The notes beneath the pieces are model-generated. The model saw only the letters and a list, made by a program, of their open reading frames with translations. It searched no databases and had not been told where the DNA came from. Position numbers and translations under genes: made by a program. From a virus, in the IMG/VR virus record IMGVR_UViG_3300027413_000012, positions 1 through 44,485 of that record: a DNA stretch of 44,485 nucleotides; one strand, 5' to 3'. This document shows positions 5,183 to 34,300 of this stretch, piece by piece; within the stretch, counting starts at the first letter, position 1, and the number at the start of each line of letters is the position of its first letter.

Positions 5183-5190
5183 GATAAATA
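5183..5190 (+). promoter_or_regulatory. Late promoter of gp26
   Basis: GATAAATA in the context GAAGATAAATAAGT, 39 bp before the gp26 ATG. It fits the T4 late class (consensus TATAAATA), which is read by the gp55 sigma factor. Confidence 0.7.
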
Positions 5191-5228
5191 AGTACATAGT
5201 TAATTCAAAAGAATTATATGGAGCAAAC

Positions 5229-6098
5229 ATGAGCAAAGATATAAACCAAAGTAATCCGTTAAGTGCTTACTTTAGAGCACCTAAGATGTATTTAGACATT
5301 CCTAGTAGTGCTAAATTTTACAGCGATGACATTGTAACTGTGCCTGAAAGTGGCGAGTTTGCAATTTATCCTATGACAACAAAAGACGAACTTATGCTTA
5401 AGAATCCGGACGCATTGCTGAATGGAGAAGCAGTATCTAATCTAATCAAGTCATGTGTTCCTGAAATTAAAAAGCCAAAGTTACTGTTTAGTGCAGACGT
5501 AGACGCAATACTAATTGCTATACGTGGTGCTAGTGGTGGCGACGAAGTTGAGGTTAATGCAGAATGTCCTAAATGCAAGGAACTAAGTACAGTTACAGTT
5601 AGCATTGACAGTTCATTGTCCACAATGGAATCACTAGATAGCGAATATACCAAAGAACTTTCAAACGGACTTACACTAGTATCATTACCGTTTACATATG
5701 GTAGTACAATTAAGGCTGGTTTAGCCAGTTTCCAAAGTACTAGAAGTATGCAGGCTATTTCAGAACTAGATGACGACATGGAAAGACTAAAAGCATTCAA
5801 CACTAGTTTTGTTAAACTAGCAGACTTAAACTTCGAGATGATTATCGATAGTATTAAAGAAATTAGATATACAGACGGTGAAGGCAACGAAGGCGTTGTT
5901 AGTGACTCTAGTCAGATTAGACAATTTTTAGAGAATACCGATAATGAAACAGGTAAGCAAATTGAAGCGTTTACTAATGAGATTAATTCTAAGGGAGTTA
6001 AACAGCAAATTCAAATAGAGTGCCAAAATGAAAAATGTGATAACACATTTGAAGCACCTATTAACTTTGATCCTGTAAATTTTTTCACGGGTTCCTAG
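5229..6098 (+). CDS. gp26: Baseplate hub / tail assembly protein gp26
   Basis: This is a 289-residue protein of the T4 gp26 baseplate family. The ATG at 5229 (MSKDINQSNPLSAYF) is preceded by ATGGAG. Longer readings from 5172 add residues encoded by the promoter region. Two cysteine pairs suggest a zinc-binding module: ECPKCKEL near residue 117, and ECQNEKCDN near the C-terminus, followed by the family's ending (APINFDPVNFF). T4 gp26 is needed for hub assembly and is not abundant in the virion. The gene ends with TTT TTC ACG GGT TCC TAG. The T TTT TTC heptamer at 6080-6086 is a canonical -1 slippery site and leads into an open -1 frame (see the next entry). The position beside a divergent tape-measure gene fits a tail-assembly chaperone role, which is inference. 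Confidence 0.85.
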   Translation: MSKDINQSNPLSAYFRAPKMYLDIPSSAKFYSDDIVTVPESGEFAIYPMTTKDELMLKNPDALLNGEAVSNLIKSCVPEIKKPKLLFSADVDAILIAIRGASGGDEVEVNAECPKCKELSTVTVSIDSSLSTMESLDSEYTKELSNGLTLVSLPFTYGSTIKAGLASFQSTRSMQAISELDDDMERLKAFNTSFVKLADLNFEMIIDSIKEIRYTDGEGNEGVVSDSSQIRQFLENTDNETGKQIEAFTNEINSKGVKQQIQIECQNEKCDNTFEAPINFDPVNFFTGS

Positions 6099-6391: not shown

Positions 6392-6415
6392 AAGTGTAAT
6401 ACCAAGTGTAATACC
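6392..6415. repeat. Direct tandem repeat 2 x 12 bp between convergent genes
   Basis: AAGTGTAATACC occurs twice back to back and fills the gap between the stop of the frameshift product (6391) and the stop of the convergent lipoprotein gene (6415-6417). The 10-base core GTGTAATACC recurs at 6499-6508 inside the lipoprotein gene. No hairpin terminator is seen between the two genes. Confidence 0.8.
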
Positions 6416-8790
6416 TACCAATTAAGCAAGAATCCTATTTCAAAAGTGTTATACTCTTCTGTATTCATAGACGCTCTTGCATAAAAAGAGTTATACCGGT
6501 GTAATACCGAAAACTTACCTAAGTCTAATTCACGTGATGAATCATACTCTAATACATCTGCAAATCCTACAGTAGTACTGTCTAAACTACGATACAAATC
6601 ATAACCTAAACTCACATAAGTTGTGCCAAGTTTAGAATTAAACTTGCCTGTGATATCTGCAAACAATTTTCCATCTACCATACTAAACGAATCAATAGTA
6701 ACATTGTGCGTACTATTTTGTTCTGTGAATCCGTTTACATCTGTGTGGTATGCTTCTGCACCGTAGGACGTATACCATGTGTCATTTATATATGTTACTT
6801 GCTCTACAAAAATACTAACTGTACTGTAATCAACATCAGCTGAACCTGTGCCGTAGTGCTTTGTAGGGTTCAGTAAAGACATAGTGTTGTCCACATAATT
6901 AATACCAAAATGTATATTGTCATCCACATAATCAAATCCAACAAAACTGCCATTGTTGTCACCGGTGAGTTTTCCTGCACTAAATCCAAATGTATCTGTT
7001 CTATGAGTGTAGCCTGCCATACCGAATGTTTCCATATCCGTAGCAAACAAAGATGTTGAACGTTGATTCTGTCGTAAGTCAGTAAACAACATTTTGCTTT
7101 TAAATATTTCATCAACGTATGCTTTAGGCTTGTTAGTAATTTCTAACATCATTTCTATTAATGGTGGATCTAATACTTGGAAGAATGTTTGCACACTTTC
7201 TGTATCACTAAAAGTTGTTGTTGATGCAATAAAGTCGTAAAAGTACTTGTTGTCTATTTCTACTGGGAAGTAAGGAGCATAGTCATCGAACTTAGGAAAG
7301 TCATCATATATCGAGAATGTACCATCTTCGTTAATCAGTGCATAAGTACCAAACACAGTGTCTACAATATCTAAATCTCCGTCACCGTCAAAGTCTAATA
7401 TTTCTAAATTACCTTCACCATTCCAATAACAAGGTCCATCTGAATTGGGGCATAATCCGTTAACATACTTTGTGTCTGGATTAACAGTACTTGTGACATC
7501 GCTAAATGTTTCGTCTCCGTTGTTTAAGAAAAACTGTACAGCTCTGCCATCATAATAAGGATCATGTTTAGTAGATGCAAGTATGATGTCTAGTAAACCG
7601 TCCCCATTAAAATCAAATGCTTTTATATCATTTGCATTTCCGTTTGTACCATAGTAGTTGTCTGGTAATTCAGTCCAGCCTCTATTACGCCAATCGTTAT
7701 TTCCATCATTCCAAAATACTGCACCCGAACTGTTTTCGTATGTTTCAGCAAATCCGTTTGCGGCGGCTTCTTCTGTTTTAAACCATCCAACTGCTACATC
7801 ACCGTGCCCGTCATTGTCAAAGTCACCGATTGTAGCCGCTGTGGCAAACACATTTGCCGCCTGTGTTGGAAACTTTTTGTTTGCAGTAAAATTACCTGCA
7901 CCGTCATTAATAAGCATTGCCCAACCCATAGGGTAGTTGTCAACATGAGCCGATGAAATTGCAGTAAATATATCCATATCTCCGTCACCGTCAGCGTCAC
8001 CGAAATCTGCATCATGTGAAAAACATCCACTATTATAACTACCTACCATACACTGGTCAAATAGTTCTTCCATAGGTAGATGTGTATCACCCTTGTCATA
8101 AAACTTTCCGTTGTCGCTTAGTACAAGTGTAGTGCCTTGATACAAGTCATCAATACCATCGCCATTAAAGTCTGCAACTATTAAACCTTTTTGATGTTCA
8201 GTATTATTGTCGCAGTCTGATCCTCTAAAACAAGGATTGCCTTCTGGAAACAAATCATTACTTAATACAAAGTTACCATCACCGTCATTTAAAAACGCAA
8301 ACAAGAAACTGTTTGGCTCAAATTCTAACCTGTCATTGCCTGTCCACAACGCCATATAAAAATCTTGCCATCCATCACCATTCAAATCTGCTCTAATAAC
8401 TTGTCCAAATTGTGGGAAAGTATTAGCAACATCTGTGTCGTTGTATTCATAGCCTACATGTGTTCCAGTAATAGTAGAACGGAAAAATCCATAGTCTGCT
8501 ATTTTATATTTTTCTGTAGGAGCAGGTAGACCAGTAGTAGTGTAATTAGTCATGTCAAATTTGTGTGTTACACTAGATGTATATCCCGACAAGTTTGTAG
8601 AATACGTTTTAGTCCACGAATCAAACTCATGTCGTTGGTCAGTGGGTGTGGATTGCGTAGGCGCCGGCGCGACAGCAGTTTGAACTTGCGGCGCGGCGGA
8701 GCCGCCACCGGAAGCACAAGATACTAATGCGAGACCTACTATTGCAATTATACTTACGTCTGCTACGGTTTTAATTATTTTACTTAACAT
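6415..8790 (-). CDS. Surface lipoprotein with FG-GAP/VCBS repeats and a barrel-like C-terminus
   Basis: This is a 791-residue protein. The ATG at 8790 places a lipoprotein signal peptide at the N-terminus: a positive start, a hydrophobic stretch, then lipobox LVSC with Cys25 as the lipidation site. Residue +2 is Ala, not Asp, which favours the outer membrane. A Pro/Ala/Thr linker follows. Residues about 135-475 carry repeated FG-GAP/VCBS calcium-binding motifs, such as ADLNGDGWQDF, ADFNGDGIDDLY, GDADGDGDMDIF, GDFDNDGHGD, FDFNGDGLLDI and LDFDGDGDLDI. Such repeats usually form a beta-propeller. From about residue 560 the sequence turns into alternating amphipathic strands ending EIGFLLNW, with a terminal aromatic residue as in outer-membrane beta-barrels. 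It is the last gene of a sigma70-type operon and overlaps the SWIM gene by 11 bp. No enzyme motif was found. It may modify the host surface (for example receptor masking or exclusion); that role is inference. Confidence 0.8.
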   Translation of the reverse strand: MLSKIIKTVADVSIIAIVGLALVSCASGGGSAAPQVQTAVAPAPTQSTPTDQRHEFDSWTKTYSTNLSGYTSSVTHKFDMTNYTTTGLPAPTEKYKIADYGFFRSTITGTHVGYEYNDTDVANTFPQFGQVIRADLNGDGWQDFYMALWTGNDRLEFEPNSFLFAFLNDGDGNFVLSNDLFPEGNPCFRGSDCDNNTEHQKGLIVADFNGDGIDDLYQGTTLVLSDNGKFYDKGDTHLPMEELFDQCMVGSYNSGCFSHDADFGDADGDGDMDIFTAISSAHVDNYPMGWAMLINDGAGNFTANKKFPTQAANVFATAATIGDFDNDGHGDVAVGWFKTEEAAANGFAETYENSSGAVFWNDGNNDWRNRGWTELPDNYYGTNGNANDIKAFDFNGDGLLDIILASTKHDPYYDGRAVQFFLNNGDETFSDVTSTVNPDTKYVNGLCPNSDGPCYWNGEGNLEILDFDGDGDLDIVDTVFGTYALINEDGTFSIYDDFPKFDDYAPYFPVEIDNKYFYDFIASTTTFSDTESVQTFFQVLDPPLIEMMLEITNKPKAYVDEIFKSKMLFTDLRQNQRSTSLFATDMETFGMAGYTHRTDTFGFSAGKLTGDNNGSFVGFDYVDDNIHFGINYVDNTMSLLNPTKHYGTGSADVDYSTVSIFVEQVTYINDTWYTSYGAEAYHTDVNGFTEQNSTHNVTIDSFSMVDGKLFADITGKFNSKLGTTYVSLGYDLYRSLDSTTVGFADVLEYDSSRELDLGKFSVLHRYNSFYARASMNTEEYNTFEIGFLLNW

Positions 8791-9076
8791 GTTTACAGTT
8801 TCCCCTAAATGTATATCCCGGACAACTACACTTGCCATCTTCGATAGTGTATACTTTGCCATTCGAACCTTGAACAGTAATAACACCTGGCGCAAGTTCT
8901 TCCGCACGTTCACCGATCTTCTTAAACTTTCTACGTGATTTGCTAAACTGCTTCATTGGATTTTTAAACACAGTATCGTTGTGTTGTACAAGTTGTCCTG
9001 CACCATTCACATGATAAATGCCATTAGCAATTTTAAGATTACCCCAATCGGTTACTTCTTGTAATATCTCAATCAT
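8780..9076 (-). CDS. Small SWIM zinc-finger protein
   Basis: This 98-residue basic protein ends in a SWIM-type zinc motif: C83-S-C85-P-G-Y-T-F-R-G-N-C94-K-H96, that is CxCx(n)CxH. SWIM fingers bind DNA or proteins and occur in helicases, transposases and MEKK1-type proteins. Here the finger sits at the extreme C-terminus of an otherwise short protein with a Lys/Arg-rich centre (KSRRKFKKIGERAEEL). The ATG overlaps the stop of the upstream gene (ATGA) and its own end overlaps the lipoprotein start by 11 bp, so it is translationally coupled on both sides. A nucleic-acid-binding or host-takeover role is plausible, but the partner and function are unknown. Confidence 0.75.
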   Translation of the reverse strand: MIEILQEVTDWGNLKIANGIYHVNGAGQLVQHNDTVFKNPMKQFSKSRRKFKKIGERAEELAPGVITVQGSNGKVYTIEDGKCSCPGYTFRGNCKHVK

Positions 9077-9297
9077 GATTGGCTCAACTTGTCATGCATT
9101 AATAAGTTCTCAACTTCGCTTGGATCGTGCAAGAACACTTTTTCCATTTCAGTTATTTCCTTAAGATGTGTTTTGCCTTCATCGTACTCAGTACGCACAA
9201 AAAGAATCTTATCTGCGACACGTTCAAACACTTCAAGGGGCATCAGCAAATCACTGTACCCGTCGATGCGAACATATTTTTTAGTTTTCGTTGCCAT
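9073..9297 (-). CDS. Hypothetical protein, 74 residues
   Basis: Not recognised. It is a charged, soluble, probably mixed alpha/beta protein beginning MATKTKKYVRIDGYSDLL, with no membrane segment and no cysteines. It is credible as a gene because AGGAG lies 9 bp before the ATG at 9297. It also follows the upstream gene by only 4 bp and shares ATGA with the SWIM gene downstream. It is the second gene of a four-gene minus-strand operon. Confidence 0.65.
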   Translation of the reverse strand: MATKTKKYVRIDGYSDLLMPLEVFERVADKILFVRTEYDEGKTHLKEITEMEKVFLHDPSEVENLLMHDKLSQS

Positions 9298-9301
9298 GCA
9301 T

Positions 9302-9715
9302 TTATGCTCCTATTTTTGCAAGACGCTCGTCTCTGTAATTAAGAGCTCCTTCGCCTAAGTAAATGTTACCATCGTCTGCTCTAAACAGTGTGTCCAACGA
9401 TGATGAAGCATCTTTCTGCTTTTGCAACACAGAAAACTCTGCTTGTTCAATAGTGATAGCACCAATTTGTACAAAATCCAACAACATGTCTGCAAAAGGA
9501 ACCTCGCCATTTGACTTCCAAACAGTAAGTCCGTCTACTTGAGCAGTATCTTGAAACTTCTCTTCGATACTCTTTGAAAAGTTGTTGCCTTTTTGTGACG
9601 TATAAAGTACATCACCAGTGAATGTTTTGTGATCATCGTTCATAGATGCCATACCAAAACGCTCTTTACGAACAGTTTCACCAGCAATTTCAACAATATC
9701 TTCTAATTTAAGCAT
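9302..9715 (-). CDS. Hypothetical protein, 137 residues, first gene of operon
   Basis: Not recognised. It begins MLKLEDIVEIAGETVRKERF and has mixed composition with an acidic middle, no signal peptide, no transmembrane segment and no cysteines. A good ribosome binding site (AGGAG, 6 bp before the ATG) and a near-consensus sigma70-type promoter 36 bp upstream make it a confident gene. The promoter type and the position among a SWIM protein and a surface lipoprotein suggest expression before the late genes. No function is proposed. Confidence 0.7.
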   Translation of the reverse strand: MLKLEDIVEIAGETVRKERFGMASMNDDHKTFTGDVLYTSQKGNNFSKSIEEKFQDTAQVDGLTVWKSNGEVPFADMLLDFVQIGAITIEQAEFSVLQKQKDASSSLDTLFRADDGNIYLGEGALNYRDERLAKIGA

Positions 9716-9750
9716 AAAAACTCCTACCTTTTTGTTAACTTATGCATACT

Positions 9751-9778
9751 ATTATACTGGTTTTTCCGGCAAAGTCAA
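9751..9778 (-). promoter_or_regulatory. Sigma70-type promoter of the 9715-6415 operon
   Basis: On the minus strand TTGACT (9778 to 9773) and TATAAT (9756 to 9751) are separated by 16 bp, one mismatch from the bacterial consensus. The site lies 36 bp upstream of the ATG at 9715 and should be read by the host polymerase early in infection. Confidence 0.75.
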
Positions 9779-9809
9779 CCTTTTTACCACAAATATTGGC
9801 ATCTTTTTT

Positions 9810-9817
9810 GTTAAATA
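9810..9817 (+). promoter_or_regulatory. Late-type promoter motif at the oxygenase pair
   Basis: GTTAAATA differs by one base from the GATAAATA motif of the other late genes. It ends 5 bp before the ATG at 9823, so a start 6 bp after the motif would give a leaderless transcript. No Shine-Dalgarno sequence precedes this ATG, which agrees with that reading. Confidence 0.45.
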
Positions 9818-9822
9818 CAAGT

Positions 9823-10263
9823 ATGGATATTAATGAATTTGTGGCGTTTTTGCGTCAAGATAAGCAGTTAAGCAGTGTGGTACAACTAAAGAAGATACAC
9901 CAAAAACTGTACTCTGCAAGCCAGTTATGGGACAGAATGCCCGCGGATTTCATCGAAAAGTACCATATACAGCCTGAACATTTTATAGGCTTGGAGTTTG
10001 TTAGACCAGGAGATTACCTAGCATTACACACAGATATTGGTGGTAGACGCAGTAATATACTTGTTAATGTAGGTGACCATCCTGCTACTATACAGCACAC
10101 TAATAATGATGTAACAGAGAATTATACCATACAGCCAGGTGATTTCTTTGTGTTAGATACTACTAAAGAACACGGCTGTGATAACCGACAATGTAGCACT
10201 ATTGCGGAGTTTGTAACAATTAATAATAGGAAACACTACAGCGAATGTATAGCACAGTTTTAA
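9823..10263 (+). CDS. 2OG-Fe(II) oxygenase-like protein, copy 1
   Basis: This 146-residue protein has the double-stranded beta-helix signature of 2-oxoglutarate/Fe(II) oxygenases: H69-x-D71 (LALHTDIGG) and a distal histidine H117 in DTTKEHG, with strands between them (RRSNILVNVGD, IQPGDFFVLD). The distal 2OG-binding Arg is not certain. Substrates in this fold are proline or asparagine side chains, nucleobases or small molecules, and none can be chosen here. ATG 9823 is preferred over an upstream ATG at 9742 because the earlier reading would translate both promoters. The gene is paralogous to the next one and overlaps it by 19 bp. Oxygenases of this type are common in marine T4-like phages. 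Confidence 0.65.
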   Translation: MDINEFVAFLRQDKQLSSVVQLKKIHQKLYSASQLWDRMPADFIEKYHIQPEHFIGLEFVRPGDYLALHTDIGGRRSNILVNVGDHPATIQHTNNDVTENYTIQPGDFFVLDTTKEHGCDNRQCSTIAEFVTINNRKHYSECIAQF

Positions 10264-10763
10264 AATGGAATTATGATGTTGTTGCAATGCGCCAGCTCGT
10301 AAAACCTATCAGAGAGTTCAAAGAAGCAAGTGCGTTCAACGTAATAGAGGATCGTGTGGATATGGATCAACACATATTTTTACTCCGCGACATGCCTCAA
10401 AGCCTACAACAACAAATCGTAAATGCTACTCCTTTACCTTTAGACATTGCGGAACACAGTGTGGCAATAGAAACAGTAAAGCAAGGATCAATGGTTAAGT
10501 TGCATCAAGACTGGTTAATGGGTTGGAATAATCCGTTAACTAGGAAAACTAATGTTATGTTTAACCTAGAAGATTCTCCATTAGAAATAATCCACAAAGA
10601 CAGTGAACATAACAAAATGTTAAATCCAGGAGAGGTATGTGTATTAGACGTTACTAAGTTCCATGGAGCATCCAAACATAGTTTGGAGAAAGACTTTTAT
10701 CTTTACACAGTTAATTTACGTTTGTCTTACACAGATACTGTTGCATTGTTAAACACTTTATAG
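10245..10763 (+). CDS. 2OG-Fe(II) oxygenase-like protein, copy 2
   Basis: This 172-residue protein is a diverged paralogue of its upstream neighbour. It shares H87-x-D89 (VKLHQDW), a strand with TNVMFNLEDSP matching SNILVNVGDHP, and LNPGEVCVLDVTKFHG matching IQPGDFFVLDTTKEHG, with H140 as the distal metal ligand. It has about 20 extra N-terminal residues. The ATG at 10245 lies inside the upstream gene (19-bp overlap), which suggests translational coupling. Retained iron ligands in both copies argue that both are active and may act on different substrates or together. The oxygenase fold call is by motif; the reaction is unknown. Confidence 0.6.
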   Translation: MYSTVLKWNYDVVAMRQLVKPIREFKEASAFNVIEDRVDMDQHIFLLRDMPQSLQQQIVNATPLPLDIAEHSVAIETVKQGSMVKLHQDWLMGWNNPLTRKTNVMFNLEDSPLEIIHKDSEHNKMLNPGEVCVLDVTKFHGASKHSLEKDFYLYTVNLRLSYTDTVALLNTL

Positions 10764-10778
10764 ATACTTCGTATCTTT
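10762..10778 (+). terminator. Weak hairpin after the oxygenase pair
   Basis: AGATAC and GTATCT form a 6-bp stem around a TTC loop directly at the stop codon, followed by only three T residues. It could be a weak factor-independent terminator or an mRNA 3' end stabiliser. Confidence 0.3.
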
Positions 10779-11255
10779 ACTACTGCTAACTTCAATCATT
10801 TCATTCATTTCAGTTCTTGTAGTAATTTTTTATTAATTAAGAAGTTATCAAGAAAGTTGAGCCATAATTCACCCGTCTCCGGGTGAATAAAAAAAATGTC
10901 ATCAAGATGAGCATCGCCATCTCAAACTCGGGTGCTATTAGGAAGCGGTGAGCCTTTTCTCCCCATACACTACCGTCACTGTCTTTCGACCTCACGGAAA
11001 TTAATATAGTCTTGTCGAGTTCAACTATATTAACTTTCAGGTTGCTTTTTCTCATTGCCTGAATCATTTTAATACTGTATCGTGTTTGTATCTTGCCGTC
11101 TACAGTCCAGTATCTCGCACCGGGATTACCGGATTGTCAAGGACAGCGAATTTCAGCCTCGCCAGGGTGGTGTAGAACCTATGTAGTTGACTTGGTGTCT
11201 GTGATGTTTTTATTAGCGTGACTGGGTGTCTATGTGTGCCATGTTCGATATATAG
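10764..11255. other. 490-bp stretch without an intact gene, locally GC-richer
   Basis: By eye the part 10865-11180 is richer in G and C than the neighbouring genes. It holds a perfect 9-bp inverted repeat with a TCTC loop (10867-10888) next to eight A residues (10889-10896). On the minus strand, pieces of coding-like sequence lie in shifted frames (see the pseudogene entry). No tRNA, promoter of the two classes seen here, or clear terminator was found. Confidence 0.5.
10805..11136 (-). pseudogene. Possible frameshifted gene remnant
   Basis: One minus-strand frame reads GARYWTVDGKIQTRYSIKM and continues through KVNIVELDKTILISV to HRFLIAPEFE. From there a neighbouring frame gives DGDAHLDDIFFIHPETG and LWLNFLDNFLINKKL before a TGA at 10807-10805. 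Joining them needs one inserted base near 10921, giving EFEDGD, so a single-base deletion is a simple explanation. The unshifted frame instead runs into an unlikely MAMLILMTFF segment and stops at 10837. Upstream, a TGA at 11139-11137 blocks extension, and the first ATGs (11067, 11055) lack a ribosome binding site. The product is not recognised. It could be a decayed gene, a sequencing or assembly error, or chance. Confidence 0.35.
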
Positions 11256-11681
11256 TTATATCTTTTTAAAATGTTCCTTAAGGATTTGTGATCCGCCTAC
11301 TCTAACGTTTATTATACCATTATAATATTCATCTGTCAAGAGAACATTTCGTTCAAATTGTTCTTGTGCTTCTATGTAACTTGCAATACCTCTAGTTGGA
11401 CAATAGTGTAGTATTTCTCTTGTAAACTTGTCTTCGCCTAACGTAATCACGTCCTCGTTTAAGTGATCCGAGCTACCCCAATAAGTACGCCAGTCGCTTT
11501 CTTTAGTTCCACGGCGTTTATTCTTTCTTCCCTTTAAGGGCGGCTTGGTTGTTTTGAACTTTGCAAGTTTTTTACCAATGTATTTCTTATCGCTTGTTGT
11601 GTTTGTAATTAAGTACACAAATGCTTCACAATCTTCCGGAAGTGTGTCTACTTTTTTACCTTTATATGTCCATTGGCTCAT
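11256..11681 (-). CDS. GIY-YIG-type endonuclease (SegE-like)
   Basis: This is a 141-residue basic protein. The GIY-YIG core is visible as FVYLITNTTSDKKYIGKK (residues about 21-38), followed by a Lys/Arg-rich segment (PPLKGRKNKRRGTKESDW). Next come YWGSSDHL, a REIL motif with candidate Arg88, and SYIEAQEQFE with candidate metal-binding Glu104. This pattern is known from short GIY-YIG nucleases of T4-like phages related to SegE. They may act as free-standing homing nucleases or DNA-processing enzymes. It is the last gene of the gp55-gp47-gp46 operon, and its start overlaps the methyltransferase end by 20 bp. Residue assignments are by eye. Confidence 0.75.
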   Translation of the reverse strand: MSQWTYKGKKVDTLPEDCEAFVYLITNTTSDKKYIGKKLAKFKTTKPPLKGRKNKRRGTKESDWRTYWGSSDHLNEDVITLGEDKFTREILHYCPTRGIASYIEAQEQFERNVLLTDEYYNGIINVRVGGSQILKEHFKKI

Positions 11682-12303
11682 TTATTAATCTCGCAGTTTT
11701 GTCAAACTCATTACTTGGGTCTGCATCAACATACTTATAACCAAGTTGTTCACTGATATGTTTTATTGCGGACGGACTTATGTAACTAATACTTCTAGTT
11801 TGGAATTCTCTATTACGCATTAGTCTATCAGTGTGGTCTAAAAATAAAGGATCATTAACATCAAGCAAATCTAAATTTTTATATGTAAAAATCACTTCGC
11901 CTAGTTGTGCTAATATACTTTTAAATTGTTTTAGATAATAAACAACCTCAGGTATTTCTAAATGTACAAAAACTGCATGTGATATTATTTTTGTAAAAGT
12001 GTAATCATGTAATGCAGATAAATCATTACGACCTATTTCTACATGTTCAACATCTGCAGGAATTCTAGATAACATAGACTGAGAAATGTCTGCACAAACA
12101 TATTTTGAAACTGTAAATGCTTCTGAGCCAAATCCTAATCCACTACCAAAGTCTAATACAACGTCTCTGTCACATATAAATTTATCAAATCTATATTTAT
12201 ATGCTTCTATTGTTCTTGTTTTTAAACTTTCTAAGTCTTCGTTTATATCTCCGCCAACAAGTTCTATTAGTCTAGGGGTGTTATCACCTTCCCACCCGCT
12301 CAT
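11662..12303 (-). CDS. SAM-dependent class I methyltransferase
   Basis: This 213-residue protein has a Rossmann-type SAM-binding motif I, VVLDFGSGLGFGS (residues 48-60), and an acidic residue at the end of the next strand (YVCADIS). It also has an ARNDLSAL-like motif region (GRNDLSALHDYTFTKI) and a strand-loop HAVFVHLEIPEVVYYL typical of small-molecule or protein methyltransferases. The DPPY motif of DNA adenine/cytosine-N4 enzymes and the PC motif of C5 enzymes are absent, so it is probably not a DNA methylase of those classes. The ATG overlaps the gp46 stop (TAATG). The substrate is unknown. Nucleoside, cap-like, lipid or queuosine-type targets cannot be told apart here. Confidence 0.75.
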   Translation of the reverse strand: MSGWEGDNTPRLIELVGGDINEDLESLKTRTIEAYKYRFDKFICDRDVVLDFGSGLGFGSEAFTVSKYVCADISQSMLSRIPADVEHVEIGRNDLSALHDYTFTKIISHAVFVHLEIPEVVYYLKQFKSILAQLGEVIFTYKNLDLLDVNDPLFLDHTDRLMRNREFQTRSISYISPSAIKHISEQLGYKYVDADPSNEFDKTARLINEPMDI

Positions 12304-14075
12304 TAAGTCTCATCGAGGATTTCTATGTCATTACTGTAACTAGTGAATCCTCCTTCTTTAACAACATAAAGAACGTTATTAACACGCCCTTGTAGTTCCT
12401 CTTTGTGCGAAATAAGGAACACATTTTTATTTGATTCTCTTCCCATCTTTTTAAGAACTGCCAATGCATTTTCAACACCAGTGGTATCCATGCCACTGTC
12501 TACCAGTTCATCTATACACATCAAATTCATTGGTTGGTTGAGACTTTCATATATGTCTCTAAATGCCCAACTCATACCAAGTATAAGTCTATTACGCTCT
12601 CCTCGGCTTAAATTATCGAAGTCTAAGTCTCTGCCGTACTCGGTGATGTCAACAGATAAGTCACTGTTAAATTTAACATCATGTGGCAAGCCTAACTTTT
12701 CTAAGTAATGTCCTAGTCTATAGTTTAAGTACTGCAAATTTTGGTCAATAATTTTCTTTCTAATAAAACTGTCTTTGCTTGTTAACAGTTTGTGTAAAAA
12801 CTCTTGATGCTCTTTTAAACTAGTGTAGTCATTAATAAGTTCGTAACTAATCTCTTCTATGCCTGTTTCCCTTAGTTGGTCAACTTGTTCGACATACGGA
12901 TTTTCTTCTTTGATCTTTTCTTCAATTTGCTCTTGCAATGTGTCAACATTATGTTTATGCTGTAAAGCATCTTCCATGTTATTGTAAAAAGTAATTGGTG
13001 TTTCTGGAATATTACCCAGTTGTTTAATACCGCTAGTAATATCTCTAATCTTATCCACTAACTCAACGTTGTACCGTTGTTCTTCTTTAATTTCTTCTTC
13101 TAAGTCCGCTGTGTACTTTTCATGAGTGTCTAAATGTGCAGTACCTTGTTCGCATGTAGGACATACTCCAGACTTTGCACTCTCTAAGTTAGCCTCCAAC
13201 GTAACAAGTTTACTATCACTACGATTCATTGACGTTGTTCTAGTTGACAAGTCTGTTTTAAGTGTAGTAAGTTTGTTTTGCTTGTCGTTTATGTCTATAA
13301 TTTTTCTATGACTGTCTAACTCTTCCTTAATGTTTGTGTGTTCCAACGTGTCCAAACTGGTCTGCAATCCTGCAACCTTGTCTCCTTTATTTCTAGTCCA
13401 TGCTTTACTACGGCTTTCGATATCCTTAATACTAGACTCTACACGTTTATTAGCATTAGCAACTGCTTGTATACGCAACTCTTCTTCTTTGATGTTGTCT
13501 TTGGTTTGCTTTAACAACTCTTTCAGCACATCTGCTTTGGCACTAATTTCAGTAATACCTAACAACTGCTCAATCATATCTCGTTGATCATTTGTTTTCA
13601 TACTGAGGAAAGGTTCGGTATATGTGTTTAATGCAATCAAATGCTTAAACATATTATGCGGGAACCCAATTACACGTTCGATATCTTTTTGTGTCTCACG
13701 CATGTCGCCTTGCTGTTCGTTGTCAGCTGATTCGTTACCATCGATATAAAACTTTAGTACGTTAGGTCGTCTGCCACGCTCAATGCGATACTCTGTTCCT
13801 TTAATCTCAAAATCAACAGTGGTAATCATTCCTTTACCATTTGTTTTGTTAATAAGATTATCCTTTCTGATGTTTGTTAATGCTTCACCATAAAGTGCGT
13901 AACTGAGTGCATTAATAATTGTAGTCTTACCTGTACCGTTTCTACTACCATCGCCGCCAAGGTCTAAGTTATGCCCTAATACCAATGTTAACGAATCAGT
14001 GTCAAACGTTACTGCTTGTAAGTTGTTACCTACACTCATAAAGTTCTTGGCTGTTACATTTTTAATTTTAAGCAA
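12303..14075 (-). CDS. gp46: Recombination exonuclease subunit gp46 (Rad50/SbcC-like ATPase)
   Basis: This 590-residue protein has the SMC/Rad50 order of parts. Walker A is NGTGKT (46-51) and is followed by a first coiled coil. A zinc hook CPTC (305-308) is followed by a second coiled coil. The ABC signature is LSRGER (489-494), Walker B is LMCIDE (518-523), the D-loop is SGMD, and the switch histidine is H557 in LISHKEE. With gp47 it forms the nuclease-ATPase that resects DNA ends for recombination-dependent replication and helps degrade host DNA. T4 gp46 has 560 residues. Its start overlaps the gp47 stop by 8 bp, which fits stoichiometric co-translation. All catalytic motifs are present. 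Confidence 0.95.
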   Translation of the reverse strand: MLKIKNVTAKNFMSVGNNLQAVTFDTDSLTLVLGHNLDLGGDGSRNGTGKTTIINALSYALYGEALTNIRKDNLINKTNGKGMITTVDFEIKGTEYRIERGRRPNVLKFYIDGNESADNEQQGDMRETQKDIERVIGFPHNMFKHLIALNTYTEPFLSMKTNDQRDMIEQLLGITEISAKADVLKELLKQTKDNIKEEELRIQAVANANKRVESSIKDIESRSKAWTRNKGDKVAGLQTSLDTLEHTNIKEELDSHRKIIDINDKQNKLTTLKTDLSTRTTSMNRSDSKLVTLEANLESAKSGVCPTCEQGTAHLDTHEKYTADLEEEIKEEQRYNVELVDKIRDITSGIKQLGNIPETPITFYNNMEDALQHKHNVDTLQEQIEEKIKEENPYVEQVDQLRETGIEEISYELINDYTSLKEHQEFLHKLLTSKDSFIRKKIIDQNLQYLNYRLGHYLEKLGLPHDVKFNSDLSVDITEYGRDLDFDNLSRGERNRLILGMSWAFRDIYESLNQPMNLMCIDELVDSGMDTTGVENALAVLKKMGRESNKNVFLISHKEELQGRVNNVLYVVKEGGFTSYSNDIEILDET

Positions 14076-15087
14076 TTTCTATATCCCTGTAAATTTCAAT
14101 TAATCTGTTTGTGTCTACCAGTTGACTTTCAATTGTTTCTAATTGACTAATCACAATTTGGTCAACACTCTCAAAGTTAATTTCTTCTCCGTCAAAAACC
14201 TCGTCTTCTTCTTTTACAACAATAAGTTGAAGTTCTCTAACATTATATTTTTCAGCAAAAGTCTCTCTCAAGAAGTTTGCTTCTTCATAACTGATAGAAA
14301 CATCTAGTTTAATTCTAGCATGTGTTGTATCATCTAAAAATTTATCGGGTGCTTCGAGTAGTTCTCTAAGTCCCATAGTGACATACTTAGGACACTGGTC
14401 CCAATTAACATAAACAGGTTCTTTGTCCCATTCTAAGAACATAGCACCACGCTCGTTGTCTTGTGCATCAGCATAGTTGTGTGGGAATGCATTGCCTATG
14501 TAATGTATGTTACCTTTATATTGGCGTTTATGAAAGTGACCACTAAACACATATTCTGGATTAGACAAGTCAGATGCTTTTACACCGCCATGGTCTGGCA
14601 TCTCTACCATTGCATTCATTTTAAAGTATGGGAGTTCAAAGTGTCCAAACATATACTTACAATCTAACTTGTTAAGTTTTTTATGCTCTTCGCCTACTAG
14701 CCACGGAATAATTGCAACACCATCTTCACAGAAGTGTTCGTCTACCATTACAAAGTTTTCTAAATCTCTAGCAAACTCTACACTGTTAAGATCACGTTTT
14801 TCTCTGTAATAGAGATCGTGATTACCAGTAATAAAATAAACTTTACTAAAGTTGTCGTTTAACTTTTTAAGGTCCTTAATTGTAGCATTCATAGTAGCAA
14901 TATTAATACTTGCTCTGTGATGATGCCAATCGCCTAGGAAGATACAAGTCTCGCAGTCTCGTGCTTTTGCTTCTGCTATAAACCAATCTACATAGTTGTG
15001 ACAGTCTTTAAGATGCTGTCTACTGTTTTGTTTTAAGCCGTAATGTATATCTGTAAAACATGCGGCCCTTTCAAAAAGGTTTGCCAT
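14068..15087 (-). CDS. gp47: Recombination exonuclease subunit gp47 (Mre11/SbcD-like)
   Basis: This 339-residue metallophosphoesterase has all the expected motifs: FTDIHYG (D13, H15), LGDWHHH (D53), ITGNHD (N89, H90), MFGHFEL, and SGHFHKRQ. These supply the two-metal site of Mre11-family nucleases. T4 gp47 has 339 residues as well. The gene lies between gp55 and gp46, 8 bp after the gp55 stop, an order also seen in marine T4-like phages. The product partners with gp46 for end resection and replication restart in the cytoplasm. Confidence 0.95.
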   Translation of the reverse strand: MANLFERAACFTDIHYGLKQNSRQHLKDCHNYVDWFIAEAKARDCETCIFLGDWHHHRASINIATMNATIKDLKKLNDNFSKVYFITGNHDLYYREKRDLNSVEFARDLENFVMVDEHFCEDGVAIIPWLVGEEHKKLNKLDCKYMFGHFELPYFKMNAMVEMPDHGGVKASDLSNPEYVFSGHFHKRQYKGNIHYIGNAFPHNYADAQDNERGAMFLEWDKEPVYVNWDQCPKYVTMGLRELLEAPDKFLDDTTHARIKLDVSISYEEANFLRETFAEKYNVRELQLIVVKEEDEVFDGEEINFESVDQIVISQLETIESQLVDTNRLIEIYRDIEIA

Positions 15088-15095
15088 ATGATTAC

Positions 15096-15971
15096 CTACT
15101 TAGTTGTATTACCGGTATTTTCCAATTCAGCTTCTGCACTTTCTCTCATTTCTCTTAAAGAGTTTTCGTGTGCAATCTGTCTGCCGTAACTTGGTAAATG
15201 TCCTTGCTCGATTAAAATATCGTCTCTGATTGTTTGGTTGCGTTTTTCTAAGTTTAACACTCTTGTGAAACTGTTATTAACTGTAGCAGTATAATATGCA
15301 AACGGATTATCCGATTTTGCTTCGTTAAACTGCAAACCAATTTGTGCAAGTTGCACTAATGCTTGTCCACGCATCTCGTCTACATAAGTGTAACCTCTCC
15401 AGTTACCCCTTTGACTGTAACGCTCAACAAGTTTCATAAACATCTTGCCTAGTTCGTTTGTGATTGTACCATGTGTACAACTGAAGTGTCCATTGTGTAG
15501 ACCACCTACCCAATGACTTCTTACGACTTCCCTAGGATTTGCTCCAGCACTATCTAAAATATAATGCTTGAACGGTGGAAAGTTTACTTTTGCTTTTGTA
15601 TCAGCAACTGTTTTCGTTGTTTTCTTCCTGCCTGGCTCTAGCGGTATATGATCATAGCCCATAACTCTAAATACTAATTCGTCTACTGCTAAACTATCAG
15701 GATCAACTGCAAATTCTTTTTGCTTAGGCTTCTTAACCCAATCACCTTCTTTAATGGCTTTTTCGTATGCCGCCCTAGACATGCCATGTGCTTTGTTTAC
15801 TTGAGCCTGCTTGATTGTTGTTTTATTAATTTGTGTAACATCATCTATGATAATGTCTTGCTGTATGTACTTGTCGTCAGTTACATAACAGTAACTAAGT
15901 TTACTTTTGTGAATTTCTTTTAAAATATCTTTATTGTTAAGATAATTTACTTTTCTGCCTGTCGTAGTCAT
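15096..15971 (-). CDS. gp55: Late-transcription sigma factor gp55
   Basis: This 291-residue protein has in its C-terminal half the gp55/sigma region 2-like core. It reads GKMFMKLVERYSQRGNWRGY, then YVDEMRGQALVQLAQIG, then FNEAKSDNPFAYYTATVNNSF, and RVLNLEKRNQTIRDD. This matches the gp55 pattern (D-SNNPFAYFT with helices binding the -10 element). The first 130 residues are a lysine-rich extension not found in T4 gp55 (185 residues); it includes a segment like a small DNA-binding helix (HGMSRAAYEKAIKEGDWV). gp55 directs RNA polymerase to late promoters, and the GATAAATA motifs in this window are its likely targets. A sigma70-like promoter lies 36 bp upstream, so it would be made before late genes. 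Confidence 0.9.
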   Translation of the reverse strand: MTTTGRKVNYLNNKDILKEIHKSKLSYCYVTDDKYIQQDIIIDDVTQINKTTIKQAQVNKAHGMSRAAYEKAIKEGDWVKKPKQKEFAVDPDSLAVDELVFRVMGYDHIPLEPGRKKTTKTVADTKAKVNFPPFKHYILDSAGANPREVVRSHWVGGLHNGHFSCTHGTITNELGKMFMKLVERYSQRGNWRGYTYVDEMRGQALVQLAQIGLQFNEAKSDNPFAYYTATVNNSFTRVLNLEKRNQTIRDDILIEQGHLPSYGRQIAHENSLREMRESAEAELENTGNTTK

Positions 15972-16006
15972 TATGTCTCCTCAAAACTATAATTCGTTTA
16001 TATTGT

Positions 16007-16034
16007 ATTATACATAGATTCTACTAGAAGTCAA
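16007..16034 (-). promoter_or_regulatory. Sigma70-type promoter of the gp55-gp47-gp46 operon
   Basis: On the minus strand TTGACT (16034 to 16029) and a perfect TATAAT (16012 to 16007) are 16 bp apart, 36 bp upstream of the gp55 ATG. The spacing and distance to the start codon equal those of the promoter at 9751-9778. Confidence 0.75.
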
Positions 16035-16082
16035 TGTTTATTCTAAAGGTTTTTAGAATTAAAATACGTTTTTATTTATTAT

Positions 16083-16090
16083 GATAAATA
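16083..16090 (+). promoter_or_regulatory. Late promoter of the gp48-gp5 baseplate operon
   Basis: GATAAATA in the context TATGATAAATAATAG, 17 bp before the ATG at 16108. The leader carries a strong ribosome binding site (CAGGAGAGAG). It is divergent from the gp55 promoter 50 bp to the left. Confidence 0.7.
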
Positions 16091-16107
16091 ATAGCAGGAG
16101 AGAGATT

Positions 16108-16836
16108 ATGGCAGACGTAACAATCAACGGAAATAGTGCAGGGCAAACGCCCGGACAAACGGCTGACGGTAGAAAAGATATAGGAAACTTTGACTGGCGA
16201 GCAAGAATACGACCAAAAAGAGGTGGCGAAGATCAAGCCTATGGTACAAAAAACCACAAAGGCGAAGATCAGAACAGTATATTAAGTCCTCTTAAAGAAC
16301 GCGGTGGCATTGTATATCCATATACTCCAAACTTATTTTTGCAAGGCTCAGTTGATTACGACGAACACAGTCAGCATGGTTCTAACTATCCGTTCTATAC
16401 ATACATTAACAGTAAGCCTGCAACACTTCCTGTACAAGGACAATTTACAGCAAACACACTAGAAGAAGCACAATACCTATTGTCTATATTTCATTTTTTA
16501 AGAACTATAACAAAAGGTTACTATGGTGACTCAGCAGTAGAGCAAGGGTACTACGGTACTCCACCTCCTGTGATGATTTTTGAATACCTGGGTGCATTTG
16601 GCTTTAACAAAGTACCAGTTATTATTAGAAGTTTTAACATACAATTACCCGACGGAGTGGATTATGTACCAGTTGAGTACAATCACCCTACTATGGGCAA
16701 TACAGTAACTTACATGCCTACTGAAACAGATATCATGATAGAAATGGTACCTCAGTATACGCAAAAGAAACTAAGAAGTCGATTTGATTTAAATGCATTC
16801 ACAAGCGGTGCAGACTTTAATAAAGGATTTATCTAA
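16108..16836 (+). CDS. gp48: Baseplate tail-tube cap protein, gp48-like
   Basis: This is a 242-residue protein beginning MADVTINGNSAG. The ATG at 16108 has GGAGAGAG upstream; the alternative at 16081 lies in the promoter. Useful landmarks are RIRPKRGG, GGIVYPYTPNLFLQGSVDYD, NYPFYTY, a helix LEEAQYLLSIFHFLRTITKG, GTPPPVMIFEY, and the beta-rich end MPTETDIMIEMVPQYTQKKL. The helix followed by strands and an IxMEMxPxY-like ending resembles the C-terminal half of T4 gp48 (364 residues), which caps the hub and starts tube polymerisation with gp54. It is first in a tight operon and shares TAATG with gp53. A gp54-type assignment cannot be excluded. Confidence 0.65.
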   Translation: MADVTINGNSAGQTPGQTADGRKDIGNFDWRARIRPKRGGEDQAYGTKNHKGEDQNSILSPLKERGGIVYPYTPNLFLQGSVDYDEHSQHGSNYPFYTYINSKPATLPVQGQFTANTLEEAQYLLSIFHFLRTITKGYYGDSAVEQGYYGTPPPVMIFEYLGAFGFNKVPVIIRSFNIQLPDGVDYVPVEYNHPTMGNTVTYMPTETDIMIEMVPQYTQKKLRSRFDLNAFTSGADFNKGFI

Positions 16837-17132
16837 TGGCCGGTTTTCATGATAATGACAGTTTTTTAAAAGGCGCACCAGTTACGAAGTTCTATTTGGA
16901 TGTTAACACATTACCTAAAATGCCACGGTCACCTATGGATCAACTCTATGCTATTGAAAGCAGGTTTGACAAAAGACCAGATCTTTTGTCTGATAAATTA
17001 TTTGGTACTACCAAATTATGGTGGGTGTTTGCGTTAAGAAATCCAGATTTATTAGTAGACCCGCTTGAAGATTTTACTTCAGGATTAGAAATTTATATAC
17101 CTTCAACTTCAGCAATAGATAGACTCAGATAA
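16836..17132 (+). CDS. gp53: Baseplate wedge protein gp53
   Basis: This 98-residue protein has the diagnostic gp53 core: RFDKRPDLLSDKLFGTTKLW, WVFALRNPDLLVDPL and GLEIYIPS. That is a LysM-like fold in which a Tyr/Phe-Asp-x-Arg-Pro segment precedes LWWVFA. T4 gp53 has 196 residues and joins wedges in the inner baseplate, so this is a minimal version retaining only the core domain. Start and stop are coupled to both neighbours by TAATG overlaps. Confidence 0.85.
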   Translation: MAGFHDNDSFLKGAPVTKFYLDVNTLPKMPRSPMDQLYAIESRFDKRPDLLSDKLFGTTKLWWVFALRNPDLLVDPLEDFTSGLEIYIPSTSAIDRLR

Positions 17133-28318: not shown

Positions 28319-31300
28319 ATGGCTGATAAAAAATATACAAAACTTCCCGTAATTCACCAGACTCCTGTAATAAAGAATTTTTTCGATACTACAGTAGAGC
28401 AACTTTTTAGTAAAGCAAACGTTGAGTCAATGTCTGCTTATGTGGGCAGGCGCGAAGAAGACTTATTGGATGCAAGAGATACATATATTTTGCAACCAAC
28501 TGCTGATAGGGATAAATTTAGTTTAGAACCAGCAGTAAGCTCAATTGACCAAACAACAGGTAAAAGTACAAATATCATGTTCTATGAGGACTATATTAAT
28601 GTACTTAAAAGTTATGGTGTTAATACACTAAATCAAAATAGTATCTTTGATACTGAAGCGTATACGTTTTTACCACCAATAAGTATTGATAAATTCGTTA
28701 ACTATCAAGAGTATTTTTGGAGCCCAAACGGCCCAACACCAGTTATTGTAGAAGGCACAGATACAAACCCTATAAACATTGAAAAAGATATTGTAGGTAA
28801 AAAGTCATTTACAACACCGAGCGGAGTTGAACTTAAATCAGGAATGGTTGTTACCTTTTCTGGAAACTATGTTATACCAAATAAATTCAAGAACGAAAAA
28901 CGATTTATTGTAGAAGGTGTAGGCGAGAGTATTATACTGCATGACAAAGAACAAAACTTTGCAACTGTGTTCAGTACTGAAGACTATATACCGTTTGACC
29001 AAACTATAATTGATAGTGATGATGACCTCGTTGCAACAGTACCAGACGGCACAACAGAATTTAATAGTGGCGGCTTAGCAGGTGTTGAAAACTATGTTTC
29101 AACAGCAGGACAAAATAATTGGCCTACTTCGGACTATGCATTTGATCAAACAGATCCAGATACAGGCATTGCACTGTGGGGAGGATATGTTGCACCCTTA
29201 GGCACACAACTTGTATATACTGTAGGCGGAGAAGGCGCTTATGATATCGAGCCTTTTGACAGTGATAACACTCAGGAAAATCCAGACTATATTATTATGG
29301 AGCGTGGAGCAACTGATAACAACGTATGGAGCAGAATTAACTTTTGGCATCATAAGAATAATTTCTTAGATGTTGGAGACCAATTACCTCCAAAAGGCAA
29401 ACGTGCAGTAAGACCTATTATAGAATTTGACAGAAATATCGAATTGTACAACTTTGGTACTACAGGTAAATTTTCAGTAGACATGAGTACAGAAGGTTAT
29501 CTGCAATCAGAAGTAGTTGGGCGTCCAACAGGAGCGTCAATTGATTCGGTAACATTACAACCTGGTAATACAATACTACTTGCAAGTGACGATGCGTCTG
29601 TTTCCCAACATGCATACATCATTAATGATGACGGTGCAGGCAATGTAGCATTATCTAAACTAGCAGACGAAAGTAGCCCTGCAGGATTATTAGACGGTGA
29701 TGCAGGTTTTATACCTTACGTTGCACAAAAAGGTGACGTAATCACAATTAAATTTGGTGCTAGATATCAAGGTATAGAATACTACTGGTCAGGCACTGAA
29801 TGGATAGCAGGACAGCAAAAGACAAAAATTAATACACCAATTGAATTTGTTATGTACGACTCTAACAAAGTTAGACTTGACAATGATGCATTGTACCCTA
29901 ACAGCACATTTACAGGTAATAATATCTTTGGATATACACCAGCAAACGCAAATAGAACAGCAGATCCTATTTTAGGATTTCCTTTAGAGTATAAAAACTT
30001 TAATAACTTTAGTGAAATATCCTTTACAAACCATCTAGATGATTATTTTGAATCGTATGTTCCTTTCGGTGGAACATCTAAGTCTCAAATTAAAGGCTAC
30101 ATATATTATAAGAAAAATAATAATGATGTAACATACGATACAGCATGGAGACCACTAGAAGACAAACTACAGCAACGTGTAGAAGACAGATATGTCATAA
30201 GCGATAGTGATTTTGAAACGGCTAGAAGGTTGTATCATATATCAGCAGTACCTACAAATTCAGATAGTGATATTGCAGGCTTAGTAGAGAAAAGTATTAG
30301 AGTGTATGTTAACGGTATTAGAACAGAACTGTTCTCGTACGACAGCGAACAAATTGCTATTAAGTTTAGCAGTTTTACATTTAGCAGATTAGATATAGTT
30401 GATATATTTACTGAAACAAAAACTGGTTACTTTATTAATGCAAAAACAGATGGCAGATATCACGTACCAGGTAGTTGGCATTCGAACTTAGACAATGCTG
30501 ATATTCTTTCGATATCGCAACCTGAATATTTAGAGCATTTTAAAAACTTAATGGAGTTTCAAGAAGATGCAAAAGGTGATTCTCTAGGTGCAAACAACTC
30601 TGCAGACATAAAAACAGAATTAAAATATGCAGACAAGATTTTACAGACTGATGATGATTTAAGATTGTCAGCATTCTTATTCAGCAACGATAAATTTAAT
30701 ATCAAAGACAGTATGGATTTTGTTGCTGAGGAATACGTTAAATATAAAAACAGATTAAAGAAAGAGATTGTTAACTTTGTAAACAGTAATGATTACAGTA
30801 CTATGTCTTACGGTGAAATGCTAGAGCTAGTAATAGAAAATGTTATAGCATATAATCAAGGTAAGAATGTATTCGACGATACATTCATGATAGCATTCGG
30901 TGACAAGTATATCGAAGAAAAAATTATTATTAACAATGTGCTAACAAAAGAATACACTTGTTCGCATTACTTGGATTTATTAAAAATTGATAACACCGTT
31001 TATGTATACGAAACAGACGGTACAACACCCGACAAACTGTTGTGTGCTGATATCGACTATGCTGTAAGTTCTAGCAACGGTGTTGTTACAATTACATTTA
31101 CAAACGGTTACACGCCAACACTAGGCAACACTATTAAAGTTAGACTATATGATGCTAACAGAGAAAGTGCCCAAGTACCGGCAACACCTAGTGCATTGGG
31201 AATGTACCCTATCACATATCCAGAGATTGTAACTGATGCATCATTTGTTAGTCCTATAAAGATGGTAGTAGGACATGATGGCAGTAAGTCTGTTGCACTA

Positions 31301-34300
31301 GATGATGTACACGACTTTATATTGTTAGAATTTGAGAAAAGAGTTTACAATGCCACACTACAACAGTTTAGGAATTCTGATAGTTTACCTGACTTAAATG
31401 TTACAGACATTAGACCAGGTAGATTTAGAACAACAGGCAGAAACAGAGACGAATTTTATGCATTGTTACGTTCTAACTTCAACAACTACATCACAAGAAA
31501 CAACGTAGATTTTGTTAAGAATGAATTTTACAAAGAAGACAACTTATGGACTTGGAATTATAATGCTGGGACGCCTAAGCCGGCTTACTGGAGAGGAATA
31601 TTTGAATCATGCTATGATACAGAACGCCCTCATACACATCCTTGGGAAATGATAGGATTTACTAGAAAACCTACATGGTGGGAAACAACATACGGCACAG
31701 ATTATAGTTCAACTAATGTTAATTTATGGGCTGACTTAGAACAAGGTATTATTAGACAAGGCAACAGAGAAAATGTAACTAACAGTAGATACAAAGAAAA
31801 TAATCCATACAGACGTATTGGATTGGCGTATGAGCTACCTGTTAACGCAAGTGGCGAGTTGATTGCACCTGCTAATATTATTAGCACAACAGCAACAACA
31901 AAATCGATTAATTGGGCCTCGACCACAAGCGGTACTTCATCTGCAGATGCAGATACAATTTTAGATGTTGACGGTTTAAGTGTTTGGGAAGTAGGCACAG
32001 TGATGAACATAACAACACATAATGTTATGAATCATCCAGTAGGCAACTTTCCTACATCTGACAATGCTAACACAATAGAAGATAAATCTTATTCGTACAC
32101 AATAGAATCGTTTGTAGGACGAGTAGATCCTAGTAGTTTAGGAACAAATTATGCAAACGCAACTTCAACTAGCAACACTGCAATTGGTCTAGCAACTAAC
32201 GGTGCATTAATTACTAATGCTAACTCAGGTATAGCACACAGCGATAGCACTAACTTTACTTACAACAACATGTTTAGAAATGAAGTTAGCAGAGATACAG
32301 CCGGCGGCGCACCTGACAATAACGGCATTTACGGATATATTCAACCTAGCCCACAGGCAGTTGGATTGGACAACTGGAATACAACTGCTCATTCACCTAT
32401 AGTAGGTTGGGCATTTGATGGTTTCCCAATTTACGGACCGTACGGATACTCAGACAGAGCAAATGCTTCGAGTAGCATTAAAAGAATAGAAAGTAGTTAC
32501 AGTTTAAAAACAACAGCGAGGTCAACAATAGGTGGCTTGCCTACCGGAGAGTTTGTAGAAGACTACGAGTACAATTCTGCAACTGGTGACCTTGATGCAT
32601 ACAATGGCCGTCACGGCATAACTCCTGAATTTCCTGGAGGCACATATTACTATGTTGCAACTATAGATACTGACAGCAAGCCAGCATATCCATACACAAC
32701 AGGACCAAGTTTTGCATCAATACCGAGAACTGTTAGTACAAATAATAACGGTACTGCTACTACCCAGGATCAGACTCTTGCAACGTTTACTGCTTTAAGT
32801 ACATTAAGTACAGCATACTCAGTAAACACAGAACTTACAAATAAAAATTGGAAATTTGGAGACAATGCTCCTGTAGAAAATGCATGGAGAATCTCAGAAG
32901 GTTATCCATTTGCGGTTATGCAGGCGCTATTATTAGCACAGCCTGGTAAGTTTGCCAGTGTGTTCTCTGATCCAAGAAAACCGTTTAGAGGTCTTGCTAA
33001 CTCTAAACAATTATTAGATAGAGATACAAAGAGACGAATTAAAACTAAATTAGCAGACATACATGGCGAAGTTACTGCATCAGAACAAACAGTTTATACT
33101 GTGGGCTTTACGCAGTTCATCCATGCATTTATGAAATTCCAAGGTCTTAACACAACAGCAGAATTTGTTAAACCTTACAGATCAATTATAAGCAAACTTG
33201 GTCATAAATTTGCTGGCTACATAGACAAAGATACTATGACAGTGTTCAGTGATAGTTACAGTTCAACTGGTAACAGTTCAAGTTTAATATTACCTCAAGA
33301 AGATATTGAAATAAATGTGCATGTAGGACCTTACAGCACAACAAACGATTTTACTGGTGTATTAATTACTTACACAACAGACGGCAAGTACAAGATAGAC
33401 GGCTATAACTCAGTGAAACGTTTCTTTGAAATAGAAGAAAGTAATATTAATGGCCCACAATCAGAAGTTTCTGTTGGCGGAGAACCTGTTGCATTTGGAA
33501 ATTATAGCAACAGTACAAATTACCAAATAGGCACAGTAGTAAAATCCGGTTATAACTTTTATAGAGCAAAAGAGTTTGCTGGAGCAGGCAGTGTTGTAAC
33601 AGACACATCAGTTTGGCAGAGACTACCTTCATTGCCAATGACTGGTGCCGCCGAAGCAACATTATACTTAACAGGCACAGGTACAATTAAGAAAGTTGAA
33701 TATGGCACAGTGTTTGATACTGTTGACGAAGTATTTGACTTCTTAAATAGTTTAGGCAGAAAGCAAGAAGCAATGGGTTACGACTTCGGCGAGTTTAACG
33801 GAGATATTAATGATGTTAACAACTGGCTATATAGCGGAAGGCAATTCCTGTTCTGGAGCATAGGCAAATGGGCCGCAGGTAACACATTAAGTTTAAGTCC
33901 ATTAGCATCTGGAGTCAAGTTTACAGCACCAATTGGTAGAGTAAGCAAAATTATTGACGTTGACCAAAGTCAATACAGCATATTGGATCAAGAAGGCAGA
34001 TCAATAAAAACTTCCGAGTGTGAGATTATTAGAGATACAAATAAGATTACTATTAATCCACCTGAAGGCAAACAGATTTACGGTGTAATATTATACACAA
34101 ATGAAATTGAACATGCAATGGTATTATCAAATAAAACTATATTTGGTGATACAATATTTGACAACGTTTTAAGTCAAAGACAACGTAGAATAAAAATTAA
34201 AGGTAAACGTACTGCTAATTGGAACGGCACATTAACAGCAGACGGCTACATTATCACAGACAATGGCTTAAAGCCAAACTTTGATACACTTGCAGGCGAC

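Follow-up and report, generated by a model that had tools for sequence, protein, structure and literature searches.

A conserved FG-GAP lipoprotein with a predicted autotransporter-like barrel in uncultured marine jumbo phages

Introduction

Why should a phage carry a gene for a large lipoprotein of bacterial type, and what might the product do in the infected cell? The question is raised by a gene for 791 amino acids (6415..8790, minus strand) in IMGVR_UViG_3300027413_000012, an uncultured virus record of 44,485 bases whose whole length was analysed and is referred to here as the window. An original prediction, made from the DNA alone, had described the product as an outer-membrane-type lipoprotein with a calcium-motif propeller and a barrel-like C-terminus. 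Our comparisons indicate that the gene belongs to the core of one uncultured marine jumbo-phage clade and was not a stray acquisition by a single phage. The explanation that we favour, with a probability of roughly 45%, is a remodelling of the infected cell's surface by an early-made, autotransporter-like outer-membrane lipoprotein, most likely via receptor binding or masking (superinfection exclusion).

Results

Anatomy of the lipoprotein

Sequence, Pfam matches, alignments and models together divide the protein into a lipobox-bearing signal sequence, an FG-GAP propeller, a helix and a 12-strand barrel. We place the start at the ATG at 8790, and not at the GTG at 8913 where the mechanical open reading frame begins farther upstream, because relatives keep an ATG just before the lipobox. 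The signal sequence with its lipobox LVSC occupies residues 1-25 (8716..8790, minus strand), and the lipobox cysteine, Cys25, does not vary among 12 phage relatives, the most distant of which has 34% identity (alignment A2). A lipobox is also present in all 30 complete relatives found at the genomic slot described below. The signal sequence and invariant cysteine mark the product as a lipoprotein of bacterial type with predicted lipidation, as had been proposed.

The propeller spans about residues 93-540 (7171..8514, minus strand) and matches the Pfam family FG-GAP_3 (PF13517) with an E-value of 4.5e-23 and 82.1 bits relative to a cut-off of 26.9. The six or more calcium motifs that had been claimed prove to be exactly six occurrences of D.[DN].[DN]G..[DE], at residues 135, 207, 265, 323, 393 and 466, relative to a mean of 0.04 and a maximum of 2 in 2000 shuffles of the protein. 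Among sequences in the PDB the propeller has a distant match to integrin alpha-V. A match to PF12256 falls below the cut-off and inside the FG-GAP repeats, and a relation to Tc toxins was rejected; PHROGs and NCBIfam assigned no family to the protein. A conserved QVLDPP motif separates the propeller from a helical linker (residues 544-575; 7066..7161, minus strand), which is followed by the barrel (residues 580-791; 6418..7053, minus strand). The predicted amphipathic-strand C-terminus holds up as 12 predicted strands. Its terminal tryptophan, which had been counted as part of the signature, is confined to the window's own subclade, and relatives end in Phe, Leu or other residues.

The barrel resembles autotransporter translocators by fold

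An AlphaFold model of the whole lipoprotein, built with 12 relatives in the alignment, has a predicted local distance difference test score (pLDDT) of 76.5. A model of the helix-barrel part, built from 28 diverse barrels of phages and bacteria, has a pLDDT of 89.3 and a predicted template modelling score of 0.79. In this model 12 strands follow a helix at positions 47-68 of the segment, which is the arrangement of a classical (type Va) autotransporter barrel. The top Foldseek matches of the helix-barrel part against the PDB are the autotransporter translocators EspP, EstA, NalP, Hbp and BrkA, with a probability of 1.00. Fold matches of the full model to DDB1 and to the spliceosome were set aside as generic propeller matches with root-mean-square deviations above 25. 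Thus, both the propeller and the barrel that the original prediction called for are present in the models, and structure further places the barrel in the autotransporter type.

Like the classical type Va autotransporters named above, the window protein would have its passenger at the N-terminus and a 12-strand barrel at the C-terminus, with a helix ahead of the barrel. Unlike them, it is phage-encoded, has a propeller instead of a beta-helix or an enzyme as its passenger, and has only about 11-13% identity to them. One of them, NalP, is likewise a lipoprotein. Phages with predicted parts of the propeller or barrel type are already in databases, specifically in BFVD, where the phage protein A0A6J5L9S5 ('Repeat domain in Vibrio, Colwellia...') gives a fold match over 961 columns (E 2.3e-21), with low identity (13%) and a modest template modelling score (0.40), and where the barrel also matches 'Autotransporter beta-domain' proteins of uncultured Caudovirales. 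A literature search on phage-encoded autotransporters and FG-GAP lipoproteins returned nothing on the family of the window lipoprotein, and the combination of propeller, lipid anchor and autotransporter-type barrel in one phage protein is an arrangement not found in the literature searched.

The gene occupies a fixed slot in one phage clade

The window carries a T4-type module coding for gp5-like and gp6-like baseplate proteins, a gp26-like baseplate hub, gp46, gp47 and a gp55-like late sigma factor. In this respect the earlier description of a T4-like phage stands; however, among cultured phages the PA5oct-like jumbo phages come closest for the two window proteins tested. Contigs that carry relatives include ones of 250 and 340 kb. 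Relatives of the lipoprotein occur in some twenty viral contigs, and no match to it was found among 50,697 phage records searched.

The comparison of this slot was seeded with the neighbouring gp26-like protein (5232..6098, plus strand; PHROG 150), whose gene converges on the lipoprotein gene, so that presence of the lipoprotein was not presupposed. The lipoprotein gene lies 216-373 bases from gp26, on the other strand, in all 32 close gp26 relatives (63-98% identity) and is absent from the 33 distant ones checked (30-38% identity). Several of these contigs nearly duplicate one another, so the 32 represent fewer independent lineages. These counts indicate the core status of the gene in this clade. 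On other related phage contigs (L014, L016 and L017) the gene is placed elsewhere, away from gp26, and contigs L153 and L154, which represent one phage lineage, encode a propeller without a barrel. As a separate observation, a 130 kb marine viral contig (L020, positions 7905-16892) carries a barrel-less FG-GAP lipoprotein near genes that appear, by eye, to be of the ClpS, SufC and SufS types.

Purifying selection and exchange of the barrel

Relative to the related contig L011, the ratio of nonsynonymous to synonymous substitution rates is 0.069 for the propeller and 0.11 for the barrel, with a value of 0.08 for gp26, indicating that the lipoprotein gene is under purifying selection. Identity along the protein shifts sharply at about residue 543. 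For example, L009 and L013 share 86% identity in the propeller and 37% in the barrel, while the L009 barrel is 74% like that of L016. The same is true for L016 relative to L015 and L017, with 84-88% identity in the propeller and 41-42% in the barrel. This switch in identity indicates that the barrel is exchanged as a cassette, with the recombination junction at the QVLDPP motif where the linker starts. Such swapping is as expected for a surface part under changing pressure.

Relatives on bacterial chromosomes

The search for host homologues that had been suggested turned up homologues on bacterial chromosomes. A scan of 84,980 species identified a homologue (L025), 36% identical, on a contig from a gammaproteobacterium that also carries DEAD-box helicase and peptidase genes. 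Within the order of this bacterium, which comprises small-genome marine gammaproteobacteria, full-length homologues scoring 646-864 bits are present in 10 of 199 genomes, and the three neighbourhoods of such homologues that were examined consist of ordinary bacterial genes. The bacterial homologues (L025 and L112-L121) share the whole architecture of the window lipoprotein and have 34-46% identity to it; their barrels are strongly divergent, with 17-20% identity to the window barrel for most. About 29 genomes of the same order encode a shorter protein (roughly 600-650 amino acids; for example L122 and L123) that has a propeller match and no barrel match; these were left out of the count of whole-protein homologues and may represent a wider, looser family. 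The bacteria with homologues have small genomes, a G+C content of 33.7-39.3% and proteorhodopsin, which fits the description of SAR86 (PMC11582366). Those with full-length homologues are thus probably SAR86, and the marine bacteria that carry relatives of the lipoprotein are probably the hosts of the phage clade.

Phage and bacterial copies can be much closer to each other: identity reaches 74% between bacterial L112 and phage L105, which is also the protein identity of the copy in bacterial genome G146 to that on phage contig L105. At the DNA level the G146 and L105 loci match at 78.3%, from 15 bases before the phage gene to 28 bases beyond its end, and outside this stretch the two loci have no match. 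Because this match is confined to the lipoprotein gene, it represents a single-gene transfer and indicates that phages and bacteria exchange this gene. The G146 copy also falls among phage copies in a tree (midpoint root, some branches long), which suggests that transfer in this case was from phage to bacterium.

Operon context and expected timing of expression

The lipoprotein gene is the last of four in a minus-strand operon. A sigma70-like promoter of near-consensus sequence, TTGACT-16-TATAAT (9751..9778, minus strand), is kept at the same position in 13 related loci, in agreement with the original prediction of a sigma70-type promoter; across the region overall, sites of this type are no commoner than chance. 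The same promoter type, also conserved, precedes the operon of the gp55-like late sigma factor, gp47 and gp46, which is headed by the gp55-like gene (15096-15971, minus strand; PHROG 12791, E 2.9e-91).

The proposal that the operon lies away from late promoters is borne out to a slight degree: the T4-type late promoter TATAAATA is rarer than chance in the window, but GATAAATAAGTA, which occurs upstream of the gp26-like gene at 5183-5194 (plus strand) and in the same place in 10 of 11 gp26 loci examined, was not seen at the lipoprotein operon. This element may be a late promoter differing from the TATAAATA of T4. A further candidate late motif, TATTAAAACT, was weak, with 19 one-mismatch sites relative to 11.8 expected. 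Given the conserved sigma70-like promoter at the lipoprotein operon, and GATAAATAAGTA at gp26 instead, expression of the lipoprotein early or middle in infection is likely; this goes part of the way toward the early expression that had been proposed.

The first operon gene (9302..9715, minus strand; 137 amino acids) and the second (9073..9297, minus strand; 74 amino acids) have no function assigned. The third (8780..9076, minus strand) codes for a SWIM zinc-finger protein of 98 amino acids (PF04434) and shares 11 bases with the lipoprotein gene; the SWIM motif occurs in 28 of 30 related loci.

Other features of the window

Just downstream of the gp6-like gene an open frame of at least 5389 amino acids (28319-44485, plus strand) is cut off where the record ends, and a piece of it (31319-34318) contains a YHYH domain (PF14240, E 2.3e-36). 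Its product is possibly a giant tail-associated protein. A small GIY-YIG/homing-endonuclease-like protein is encoded at 11256-11681 (minus strand), with matches to PHROG 447 ('NAD synthetase') and PHROG 7363 (homing endonuclease), and its position is kept in relatives.

Discussion

From established knowledge of proteins with this anatomy, the lipoprotein would be exported early in infection, its signal peptide cut and Cys25 lipidated, after which the beta-barrel assembly machinery (BAM) would fold the barrel into the outer membrane with the calcium-stabilised propeller held at the cell surface. There the protein would most likely bind or mask the receptor of the phage, or some related protein of the surface, such that the infected cell and its debris would stop absorbing the same or competing phages. 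The occurrence of one family in phages and among chromosomal surface proteins of marine gammaproteobacteria (probably SAR86) suggests that the protein would mimic a component of the host surface or take its place. The original prediction of mimicry of a host surface protein has this homology in its favour, and its further proposals, superinfection blocking and altered adhesion or aggregation, are possible roles.

Our preference for superinfection exclusion or receptor masking as the role comes from an analogy with phage T5, the early-type control, the universality of the gene in the clade, the bacterial surface homologues and the swapping of the barrel. The T5 protein Llp is an outer-membrane lipoprotein for superinfection exclusion that jams FhuA (PMC9586334). 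Like Llp, the window protein is phage-encoded, is predicted to be an outer-membrane lipoprotein and is likely expressed early. In contrast to Llp, it has 791 amino acids, a propeller and a barrel of its own, and its target is only hypothetical.

Several points weigh against this explanation. Llp and exclusion lipoproteins of its kind are small and periplasmic (PMC9586334). Searches of the 28 barrels against Pfam matched no autotransporter barrel family, which is why we call the barrel autotransporter-like by fold and not a member by sequence. In addition, the barrel is not always needed, as it is absent from the L153/L154 lineage and from many bacterial relatives, and the propeller of such forms may be periplasmic.

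The alternative that best survives, although we consider it unlikely, is an auxiliary host-fitness gene whose phage copy maintains or boosts a host surface function, such as polysaccharide, calcium or nutrient binding, and so keeps the infected cell productive. The full-length homologues on bacterial chromosomes, their exchange with phages, the early-type promoter and the strong purifying selection are all congruent with such a role. However, the fixed slot in every close relative is more typical of a core infection gene than of an optional fitness gene, and in the bacterial order only 10 of 199 genomes carry a full-length copy.

Less credible still is an adhesin or a control on debris decoys, in which the propeller sticks infected cells together or stops progeny from binding debris after lysis. 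FG-GAP propellers do act in adhesion, as in the integrin alpha-V that was matched, and the predicted surface placement would suit this, but no adhesion motif or ligand was identified and the integrin match is that of a generic propeller. Finally, it is highly improbable that the product is a virion part, for example of the baseplate or tail, that has been mistaken for a membrane protein: the gene adjoins that of the baseplate hub and has other structural genes near it, yet it has a conserved lipobox and a membrane barrel, lies on the strand opposite gp26 under a different promoter type, sits away from gp26 in L014, L016 and L017, and belongs to a family that exists on bacterial chromosomes.

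Returning to surface remodelling by an early outer-membrane lipoprotein, its boldest form would be a modular superinfection exclusion built on an autotransporter, whereby a jumbo-phage clade of SAR86-type bacteria depends on an early, self-inserting, bacteria-traded protein whose swappable barrel sets which phages are admitted; we regard this as a long shot. As a surface gene that is clade-wide and shared with bacteria, the lipoprotein offers a link to the host, a clade marker and a concrete candidate for the means by which these phages change the cells that they infect.
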